Origin: Candidatus Pacearchaeota archaeon
GTDB taxonomy: Archaea; Nanobdellota; Nanobdellia; Pacearchaeales; GW2011-AR1
NCBI GenBank assembly: GCA_016181885.1
Contig: JACOYJ010000022.1
Coordinates: forward strand, 1-48,782
DNA: 48,782 bases
Direction of reading: 5' to 3'
Part shown: positions 4,230 through 48,411 of the stretch, piece by piece
Layout: the number at the start of each line of letters is the position of its first letter
Numbering within the stretch: position 1 is the stretch's first letter
Made by a program: the position numbers and the translations under genes
The notes under the pieces: model-generated
What the model saw: only the letters and a program-made list of their open reading frames with translations
What the model was told of the DNA's origin: nothing
The model's database searches: none

Positions 4230-4351
4230 TGCAGGGTACAGGATTCGAACCTGTGCAAGCACTAAGCTAATAGGTTTCTTTAAGATTATTCGCGTTATTT
4301 TCGTAAATTCTTGCCTAAGCCTATCCCGTTTGACCACTCCGGCAACCCTGC
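4230..4351 (-). tRNA. tRNA-Leu(TAG) with intron
   Basis: Class II tRNA with acceptor stem GCAGGGT/ACCCTGC, discriminator A, D-arm GCCGGAGTGGTCAAACGG, extended variable arm and T-arm CAGGTTCGAATCCTG. The anticodon stem ATAGG/CCTAT encloses loop CTTAGG, giving anticodon TAG. A 38-base intron (about 4276-4313) sits at the canonical 37/38 position; removing it leaves 84 nt. A TATA-like ATATTTAAT lies about 28 bases upstream of the 5' end. Confidence 0.93.
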
Positions 4352-18935: not shown

Positions 18936-19026
18936 AGCCTGTGGAGAGAATTGAACTCCCGACCTACTGCTCTCTTATGAATTTATTCACTACAAGGCAG
19001 CCGCTCTACCACTGAGCTACACAGGC
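18936..19026 (-). tRNA. tRNA-Thr(TGT) with intron
   Basis: Acceptor GCCTGTG/CACAGGC with discriminator T, D-arm GCTCAGTGGTAGAGC, anticodon stem GCTGC/GCAGT around CTTGTA (anticodon TGT), T-arm GGGAGTTCAATTCTCTC. A 19-base intron (about 18972-18990) interrupts position 37/38; removing it leaves 72 nt with the usual CTTGTAAGCAG-TAGGTC arrangement. Confidence 0.92.
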
Positions 19027-46001: not shown

Positions 46002-46088
46002 AAAAAACAAAATTACAATTCATTAATAAAGATTTATGCGAATAAATGAATGCCGCTGATTGTATTTAAGGGAGATTAATCCGATAAT

Positions 46089-46161
46089 AGCCCCGCTCGG
46101 ATTCGAACCGAGGTCTCGAGCTCCAAAGGCTCGCATACTTGACCGGCTATACGACGGGGCT
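46089..46161 (-). tRNA. tRNA-Gln(TTG)
   Basis: 73 bases: acceptor AGCCCCG/CGGGGCT with discriminator T or A depending on end choice, D-arm GTATAGCCGGTCAAGTAT, anticodon stem CGAGC/GCTCG around CTTTGGA (anticodon TTG), T-arm CTCGGTTCGAATCCGAG. No intron. Unusually it has no TATA box in front of it: the upstream bases are the end of a homing endonuclease gene whose stop codon lies 15 bases inside the tRNA. Confidence 0.93.
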
Positions 46162-47091
46162 ATCTAAATTCCACATCCTAACTTTCTTAAGATGCTTATC
46201 ATTACTGAAACCGATGAGTTTTAAAAACTTTCTTAATTCGTCTTTTTTGGTTATGTAAATTTCCTTACCTTTGCTTATTCTTGAGCAATTAATGCCCAAT
46301 GAAAGTAAACCGTTTCTAACGTCATTCAATAAATCTTGATTATAATTAGTAAAGCAAAATTGGTGGGAATTTTGGTTAGTTAGTTTATAAACAGATCCAT
46401 CAGTATCATAAAGCCCCCTTAAACACGCAATAAGAAATTTGTTGTGATCCTTTATCCAAACCGGAATCCTCAGTTTATTCTTAATCTTATTTCCAGGAGG
46501 AAATCCTTTTTCTTCTAAAAAATTAATAAGTTTTACACTATGGGATTCAATAAACATTGCATTTGGAGGATCTTGAAAACCTTTTTTAGGTTTAAACCTC
46601 CCAACTCTAACTTGAATATTAAATAATTTTTCAATAAGAGGCTTTACGTAATTAGTTAAATACTCCTTATCATGCCTGGAGTCTCCAACAATTTTTATCA
46701 CATAAACTCCTCTTTTGTTATTTCGTGATTTATAGAAACTTGTTTTATAGGAATTCCCATCTCCTAGCATGATTCCATAAAACTCTGCAAGTTCTTCTGA
46801 ATCTCGAGGGATTTTAATTTCCTTTGTTTTGCCTAGGGATATAATTCCCCCCTTACATTGTCCCCAATTATCACTCAATTTTTCAGTTATAAATTCATTA
46901 AAATCTTTCTTAAGAAATCTGCAAATTTTCTTATAAACATCTTAAGAAAGTAATCTTTGTTCATGCCTTAATTCACTCCTCAAGTAACCTTCTGAAACAC
47001 CCAATAACTTAGACAACTCAAACCAAGAATAATTTTCTTTCAAAGAATTAATCATTTCTTTCTGCTTACCTTTAATCAACTTAATCCTCAT
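46147..47091 (-). pseudogene. LAGLIDADG homing endonuclease gene with in-frame stop
   Basis: From ATG 47091 a 49-residue N-terminal part (MRIKLIKGKQKEM..., with a helix-turn-helix-like WFELSKLLGVSEGYLRSEL) ends in TAA at 46942-46944. The same frame then continues without interruption (DVYKKICRFLKKDF...) into a 243-residue endonuclease that could restart at TTG 46878. Motifs FYGIMLGDGN and LRGLYDTDGS are the two LAGLIDADG helices. It ends inside the tRNA-Gln gene. Either decaying, or made as two pieces or by readthrough. Confidence 0.8.
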
Positions 47092-47128
47092 AGATAAACA
47101 AAAGTCCTGAATTATATAAATCTATTTT

Positions 47129-47150
47129 TTGACCACTGAACTATGGGGCT
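47129..47150 (-). repeat. tRNA-Gln 5' fragment (acceptor strand and D-arm)
   Basis: AGCCCCATAGTTCAGTGGTC followed by AA matches the first third of tRNA-Gln, as in the intact copy at 46161 (AGCCCCGTCGTATAGCCGGTC), differing at six positions. It then runs directly into the endonuclease leader. No matching 3' part follows, so it is a partial copy. Confidence 0.7.
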
Positions 47151-47172
47151 ATAAAAAGAAAACTTATATTTG

Positions 47173-47181
47173 ATTTATAAG
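47173..47181 (-). promoter_or_regulatory. TATA box in front of the tRNA-Gln fragment
   Basis: TTATAAATC on the minus strand lies about 26 bases before the fragment's first base, the normal distance for an archaeal tRNA promoter. It appears to be the only promoter for the fragment, the endonuclease and the intact tRNA-Gln downstream. Confidence 0.55.
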
Positions 47182-47396: not shown

Positions 47397-48116
47397 TCAC
47401 CCAAAAACTTCATTGTAATAAATCGCCCTATTAACATCCTGGGCCTTTGGATTAATCCATCCAAAAAATCTTTTCAATCCAGAATCTCCATACTTTTCTC
47501 CGATCAGCATCGCTGCAAGCTTTCTATACTCCTCGCTTGCTCTCGACCACGGCTTGTAGCTCGGATAAGTTTGAAACTCAGACAAAGCTCTCAAGAAATT
47601 AATATCATAGGGGATAACAGCCATAACAGGCAGATCCAAAGTATCCTCAATATCTTTCAAGGATAACTCAAAATTTTTACTATGAACTTTATTGATAATT
47701 ATGCCTGAAATAGGGGTCCCTCGATTAACGGCCAATTTAACTGCCTTAAGAGTATTGCTAAGAGTCGGATGGTCTGGGGTTGTAACAACAAGTATCTCGT
47801 CAGAAGCCAGCATAACTCCCAAGGTTTCATCATTCAATGCAGGCGAAGAGTCAATAATAACTGCATCATAAAATTTTTTCAGATATCCTATCTTGTCCCC
47901 AATCTTTAACGGGCTGACATCTAACCTATTGAATATCGAAGCCGGCATGACATCAAATTTTTCAAGATTATGAATTGCGTCCTTTGGGCTAGCCCTTTTG
48001 GCAAGAACATGATGAAGAGTAACTTCAGGCTCGATAATGTTAAAATGCAGGCCCAAGTTTGGCGCTGATAGATTTCCGTCGACAAGCAAGGCTTTTCTTC
48101 CAAAATAAGAATAGTT
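47397..48116 (-). CDS. minD: MinD/ParA-family ATPase, 5'-truncated
   Basis: About 240 residues in frame, beginning in YSYFGRKALLVDGNLSAPN, which in an intact MinD follows the Walker A motif. Walker B-like VIIDSSPAL, TTPDHPTLSN and GIIINKVHS are as in MinD. The Walker A region (GKGGxGKT) should lie about 30 residues upstream, but the frame hits TAG at 48117-48119 and the sequence beyond is unrelated. The gene is therefore cut at about 48113, most likely by a contig misjoin. Confidence 0.85.
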   Translation of the reverse strand, partial: NYSYFGRKALLVDGNLSAPNLGLHFNIIEPEVTLHHVLAKRASPKDAIHNLEKFDVMPASIFNRLDVSPLKIGDKIGYLKKFYDAVIIDSSPALNDETLGVMLASDEILVVTTPDHPTLSNTLKAVKLAVNRGTPISGIIINKVHSKNFELSLKDIEDTLDLPVMAVIPYDINFLRALSEFQTYPSYKPWSRASEEYRKLAAMLIGEKYGDSGLKRFFGWINPKAQDVNRAIYYNEVFG

Positions 48117-48195
48117 CTAAAATCAAACTCATCGGAATAAAAACGGTTGAGAATCTTGTCTTTGTCTTGTATTGTTTCATGGCTATAAAACAAGC

Positions 48196-48411
48196 TCATT
48201 TTATCCCTAGCTGTGTTATTTCTATACAACTGGTACTTCCCATCATCAAATACTTTTTTGGTACCCCAAATGCCAGGATAATACTCAACCAGATAGACGC
48301 AATCACCATGCTTGATCCAAGATCTGGCTGCAGAAAAGCTAGTAACATGGGTAAGAGCATTGCAGTCAGGGACAAGATTAGCGCCACAGGAAAATTTTTT
48401 CTAAACTTCAA
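48196..48411 (-). pseudogene. RodA/FtsW-like fragment
   Basis: About 70 residues including RKNFPVALILSLTAMLLPML and LAFLQPDLGSSMVIASIWLS, the QPDLG motif typical of RodA/FtsW/SpoVE, a peptidoglycan glycosyltransferase of bacteria. Both ends are broken. The surrounding frames do not continue the domain. Probably bacterial DNA joined to this contig. Confidence 0.6.

Follow-up and report, generated by a model that had tools for sequence, protein, structure and literature searches.

The window (the whole stretch of DNA analysed, 48,782 nt of contig JACOYJ010000022.1 from a Candidatus Pacearchaeota archaeon) very probably contains a mobile homing-endonuclease element that inserted after nucleotide 22, in the D loop, of a tRNA-Gln(UUG) gene. 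In the cycle that we propose, the enzyme would cut the D loop of tRNA genes that lack the element, the element would spread when the break is repaired from an occupied copy, and the rebuilt tRNA would evade cutting through a changed D arm (an extra base, substitutions or, in many relatives, a bulge–helix–bulge (BHB) intron at the site). RNase P would free the tRNA from a transcript started at the old tRNA promoter and/or at the TATA box of the element. The window, in which the endonuclease is probably nonfunctional owing to an in-frame stop, would represent a decay stage of this homing cycle. Such elements would form a class of selfish genes that DPANN archaea have in common with CPR bacteria and whose targets are tRNA genes of many kinds, each broken and then rebuilt.

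Layout of the tRNA-Gln locus and its endonuclease

All features of the locus lie on the minus strand. The TATA box of the original tRNA-Gln promoter (CTTATAAAT, 47173–47181) is located at −31 of a 22-nt 5′ stub of the original tRNA-Gln(UUG) (AGCCCCATAGTTCAGTGGTCAA, 47129–47150; nucleotide 1 to the D loop), and native tRNA-Gln genes of the same order also have a TATA box at about −31. The element spans about 47128 to 46139 and comprises its own TATA box, a LAGLIDADG homing endonuclease gene and a replacement tRNA 5′ part; insertion leaves the old promoter and the stub behind. The TATA box of the element (TTTATATAA, 47112–47120) has a conserved position in related loci and lies 29 nt upstream of the endonuclease ATG, which fits a leaderless mRNA. 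The endonuclease gene (46147–47091; ATG at 47091, stop TAG at 46149–46147) runs through a hairpin at its 3′ end (46173–46195; z −2.37), just before the tRNA, and into the complete rebuilt tRNA-Gln(UUG) (46088–46161; 59.8 bits to Rfam tRNA), in which its TAG forms nucleotides 13–15. The order of TATA box, tRNA-Gln 5′ part, endonuclease and complete tRNA-Gln described in the first-pass annotation is thus confirmed, as is the endonuclease stop within the tRNA. Upstream, a ParA/MinD-like gene (47397–48089; Pfam ParA/CbiA), a conserved neighbour by synteny, marks the insertion locus; it has no N-terminal part in its frame (region 47397–48400), pointing to a frameshift or sequencing error. The rebuilt gene is the sole tRNA-Gln(UUG) among the 25 tRNA genes found in an incomplete assembly (84.7%). 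Two intron-bearing tRNA genes of the window, tRNA-Leu(UAA) at 4230–4351 (−) and tRNA-Thr(UGU) at 18936–19026 (−), were missed by the default tRNA scan.

The stub resembles native tRNA-Gln of the order (36.1 bits against native tRNA-Gln 5′ ends and P of about 0.005 in the stub scan of the window). It terminates at the D-loop GGTCAA, 37 nt from the endonuclease ATG, a distance found in several related loci. The sequence 3′ of the stub, CAGGACTTTTG, was considered as a second tRNA piece and rejected, because what follows GGTCAA in relatives is specific to the element and includes its TATA box, with 37 nt to the ATG.

The encoded protein matches Pfam LAGLIDADG_3 (E = 2e-14) and consists of an N-terminal part and a two-motif LAGLIDADG domain, in which GDG and DTDG are invariant and both LAGLIDADG motifs retain their acidic residues. 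Its predicted structure (pLDDT 85.5) matched PI-PfuI, I-DmoI and I-Tsp061I in Foldseek (E about 1e-9). By domain, motifs and modelled fold the protein belongs to the LAGLIDADG homing endonucleases, with cleavage as a putative activity. Intact endonuclease frames are present in many relatives. The frame in the window is interrupted by TAA at 46944–46942 (codon 50), so this copy is probably inactive or starts internally. The N-terminal part missing from the ParA/MinD-like frame makes an assembly or sequencing error conceivable as well; in all, the copy would be either dying, internally started or mis-assembled.

Transcription of the rebuilt tRNA

The first-pass annotation held that the intact tRNA has no promoter of its own and is made from the old one. 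With a motif trained on 39 tRNA-Gln promoters without endonuclease, the old promoter scores 12.5 bits in the window (native median, 11.4) and is retained in 12 of 23 loci. No good TATA box is present at −45 to −18 of the intact tRNA in the window (best score, −0.9), and only 2 of the 23 loci have one. A weaker TATA-like site (7.4 bits) occurs at −64 of the window tRNA. Transcription from the old promoter is favoured by the promoter kept in the window and made less certain by two features: the element has its own TATA box, and the old promoter has been lost at the same locus in G154, where the stop codon of the ParA/MinD-like gene abuts the stub. In addition, remnants in L215 and L195 retain the 3′ end of the endonuclease gene alone before the tRNA. 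Given the G154 loss, these remnants and the −64 site, the single-promoter claim is supported only in part.

The same observations favour a promoter inside the 3′ end of the endonuclease gene, with the stub promoter irrelevant, and TATA-like sites at about −60 recur in tRNA-Gln(UUG) loci. We consider this arrangement somewhat unlikely, since the site scores barely within the range of native promoters and lies at an atypical distance from the tRNA, and since the window retains a strong old promoter; the arrangement concerns expression only and is compatible with homing. The hairpin before the tRNA has z < −2.3 in 9 of 14 tRNA-Gln(UUG) loci, is not general elsewhere and could aid release of the tRNA. 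Apparently compensating changes (GCATCTTAA/TTAAGATGC and ACATTTTAA/TTAAAATGT) were seen in this hairpin among the window, L050, L051, L098, L215 and L233.

Empty sites, spread and target specificity

The order of the ParA/MinD-like gene followed by a same-strand tRNA-Gln is conserved in the family, and loci with and without the element could be compared. Five relatives carry an intact tRNA without endonuclease at the locus of the window (G127 (L226), G003 (L230), G002 (L200), G001 (L205) and G159 (L231)), with 73–128 nt between the ParA/MinD-like stop codon and the anticodon; L209 and L224 are likewise unfilled. The same locus is filled in the window, G154 (L228) and G014 (L056). In the empty L205, the promoter AAACCCTTATAAAT runs into the intact tRNA, whereas in the window the same motif runs into the stub. 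The empty relatives of the window itself belong to other genera; three pairs of filled and empty loci come from single genera. L050 (G047; filled, with a D-loop intron) and L239 (G035; empty) have flanks that are 70–73% identical on both sides and a common promoter, L244 (G200; filled) and L240 (G199; empty) share an upstream kinase-like gene, and L215 (G045) has a decayed remnant of ~176 nt and an intron whereas L214 (G049) is empty and has no intron. A CPR pair from one family shows the same contrast, with comF, endonuclease gene and tRNA-Ser in L248 and comF and tRNA-Ser in L250. No relative with two complete tRNA genes at the site of the window was seen. These comparisons bear out the proposal that a tRNA-Gln gene was invaded within its 5′ part and that a full tRNA stands at the far end of the element: relatives lacking the element carry just one tRNA-Gln, intact, in the corresponding position.

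The single tRNA at empty sites already contradicts the view that the endonuclease merely lies beside the tRNA and that the stub is a chance match or a decayed tandem tRNA copy. Stubs are unclear in several loci and duplications are possible in metagenome-assembled contigs, but the geometry is fixed and nearly all strong homologues adjoin a tRNA in two domains, which makes this explanation very unlikely. Where the target is tRNA-Gln, GGTCAA is the exact end of the stub, and the ATG mostly follows after 36–39 nt. When a native-tRNA profile was combined with a positional test, 26 of 49 archaeal loci had their best stub match ending 20–60 nt upstream of the endonuclease ATG, whereas 7.2 would be expected. 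A direct comparison of rebuilt tRNA 5′ ends with the DNA upstream of them was dropped for low power (22/79 at P < 0.05), because the stub and the rebuilt end differ. In CPR bacteria the N terminus of the endonuclease may begin inside the stub (L120, L105), and across the family the usual endonuclease stop is TAG or TAA within the tRNA.

The order of fragment, endonuclease and tRNA, for which the first-pass annotation had suggested a wider search, was found at many tRNA genes of archaea and bacteria. Of 56 relatives covered by a protein search, 28 have homologues, almost all of them immediately before a tRNA, and a scan of GTDB contigs yielded at least 438 confirmed relatives. The hosts of the best 80 of these are archaea (Pacearchaeota, Woesearchaeota, Diapherotrites, Aenigmatarchaeota and Micrarchaeota) and bacteria (many CPR phyla, Omnitrophota, Elusimicrobiota and a Planctomycetales metagenome-assembled genome), and in 67 of the 80 a same-strand tRNA starts ≤150 nt from the end of the endonuclease match. 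With even sampling, the host phylum gave matches in 86 of 194 genomes (E ≤ 1e-20) and Patescibacteria in 15 of 145 (E ≤ 1e-10); all 13 CPR matches with E < 1e-29 adjoin tRNA-Ser, tRNA-Tyr or tRNA-Gln. Among the 30 top-scoring loci in the host phylum, ARAGORN placed a same-strand tRNA in 18, five more were found by eye (L299, L300, L301, L304 and L309) and three have an opposite-strand tRNA (L314 by eye, L315 and L320). Because ARAGORN misses or mislabels several tRNAs with D-loop introns, these adjacency counts are lower bounds and the isotype labels of intron-bearing tRNAs are rough. Viral and phage collections yielded distant homologues only. Two weaker homologues in Patescibacteria (L288 and L284) show a different arrangement, with the nearest tRNA-Leu(CAA) near the 5′ end of the endonuclease gene and none directly after it.

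Endonucleases antisense to tRNA-Met or tRNA-Phe genes were found in L023, L025, L015, L016, L314, L315 and L320. In L023, where the tRNA is tRNA-Met, a 39-nt 3′ stub is located on the far side of the endonuclease gene, so that the layout mirrors that of the window; no stub was found in L015 and L016 (tRNA-Phe). From these layouts, the rebuilt tRNA seems always to lie on the 3′ side of the endonuclease gene, with orientation setting which end is rebuilt (clear in L023, weak in L025).

In a tree of the endonucleases, the target labels required 24 changes compared with a mean of 42.1 after shuffling, and none of 200 shuffles was as low. The tRNA-Gln(UUG) enzymes form a single clade (100/100) and those of tRNA-Gln(CUG) mostly another, and one tRNA-Ser(CGA) clade unites hosts named Elusimicrobiota, Liptonbacteria and Moranbacteria. 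As far as these sequences tell, endonuclease phylogeny follows the isoacceptor that is targeted even where host phyla differ, a pattern characteristic of homing.

D-arm changes and relation to known systems

The rebuilt 5′ part of the window tRNA (AGCCCCGTCGTATAGCCGGTCAA) has a different D stem from the stub, and its D loop (AGCCGGTCAA) is one base longer than that of the stub (AGTGGTCAA). The tRNA-Gln(UUG) genes carry introns between GGTCAA and the 3′ D strand in 7 of 14 cases with an endonuclease or remnant compared with 4 of 42 without (P = 0.003), and a D-loop intron or one additional base in 10 of 14 filled compared with 6 of 42 unfilled loci (P = 1.3e-4); D-loop changes were counted by hand and the P values ignore relatedness. 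A strict BHB is present in 10 of 11 introns, compared with 2.6% of shuffles, and removal of the BHB intron leaves a tRNA-like D arm. The spliced product of L215 (GGTCAAGCATCCAAGG) is one base off the sequence of its empty congener (GGTCAAGCATTCAAGG).

Given that D-loop BHB introns exist in the host lineage and that the stub ends where they start, the endonuclease could instead lie within a very long tRNA intron, the real tRNA being spliced from the stub and the 3′ half. This is highly improbable: no GACC or GACT partner precedes the 3′ half of the window tRNA, and the stub would mispair with that half at 7:66 (A × C) and 12:23 (T × T), whereas the rebuilt 5′ part pairs with it fully, including at both positions. 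Moreover, the Rfam scan found no group I or group II intron, and the tRNA is complete without any removal.

Under the insertion model, we infer, without claiming proof, that the intron and the altered D arm shield the rebuilt gene from the enzyme. The D-loop length is unaltered in four filled relatives (L053, L228, L052 and L195), in which protection would therefore come from substitutions, or the enzyme is dead. A broader reading, which we hold tentatively and as somewhat less than an even prospect, is that D-loop introns of DPANN tRNAs originate, in part at least, as a means of immunity to these endonucleases: either the element brings along a BHB intron or altered D arm, or its attack selects for one, in each case precisely where the enzyme cuts. 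If true, this would directly answer why archaeal tRNA introns occupy odd positions. Introns of this type also occur at the exact insertion site in tRNA-Gln(UUG) genes without endonuclease (L203, L213/L216, L222 and L229), possibly as scars of lost elements.

Integrases commonly have their attachment sites in tRNA genes. Like the element, tRNA-integrating genomic islands use and restore a tRNA gene, but they depend on an integrase and in general it is the 3′ end that they restore. The displaced fragment and rebuilt tRNA recall such sites, but placement by an integrase with the endonuclease as cargo is extremely improbable, as the LAGLIDADG protein is the sole product encoded by the 1-kb element and target specificity tracks the endonuclease tree. 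The distinction drawn in the first-pass annotation from both intron homing and integrases is upheld, with neither a splice boundary nor an integrase in the element. PI-PfuI, I-DmoI and I-Tsp061I share the fold and the two motifs, but reside in inteins or introns that are spliced out, whereas here the host gene is rebuilt.

The closest parallels are the mobile endonuclease ORFs (mORFs) of fungal mitochondria, which replace gene 3′ ends in Allomyces atp6 and in Glomus atp6, atp9, cox2 and nad3 (PMC3630166). As in mORFs, a LAGLIDADG ORF lies in an essential gene with a diverged replacement part, the displaced native part stays and no intron is needed; the layout of stub, endonuclease gene and rebuilt tRNA, together with the empty sites, is that of an mORF. 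Fungal mORFs, however, replace the C-terminal part (3′ end) of mitochondrial protein genes, whereas the element affects archaeal and bacterial tRNA genes, and a BHB intron is often present at the site. Because it is the 5′ part of a tRNA gene that is replaced, the element functions as mORFs do but is not classed among them. SegB of phage T4 is also a free-standing homing endonuclease among tRNA genes that homes without an intron (PMC2988022), but it is a GIY-YIG enzyme encoded between tRNA genes with an intergenic target, and no tRNA is split and rebuilt. Split and intron-bearing archaeal tRNAs likewise have BHB introns in D arms, and disruption of tRNA genes has been proposed to protect against mobile elements, in a review that mentions no homing endonuclease (PMC3978253). 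The full-length tRNA in the window sets it apart from split or permuted tRNAs, and the element would supply a concrete agent for that older proposal.

In a survey of archaeal group I introns, 39 of 39 were in rRNA genes (PMC6125680), and a paper on rRNA insertions in CPR bacteria leaves tRNA unmentioned (PMC11270868). Our literature search, with bioRxiv and most subscription journals outside its reach, returned no report of such elements at tRNA genes, and the breaking and rebuilding of tRNA genes by endonuclease elements appears to be undescribed. The elements may be a vehicle of tRNA D-arm replacement and could be a source of meganucleases specific for tRNA genes. The genome of the window encodes two further endonucleases of the family, one beside tRNA-His (L256, 1234–2331; G000:C11) and one beside tRNA-Pro (L257, 548–1066; G000:C4).
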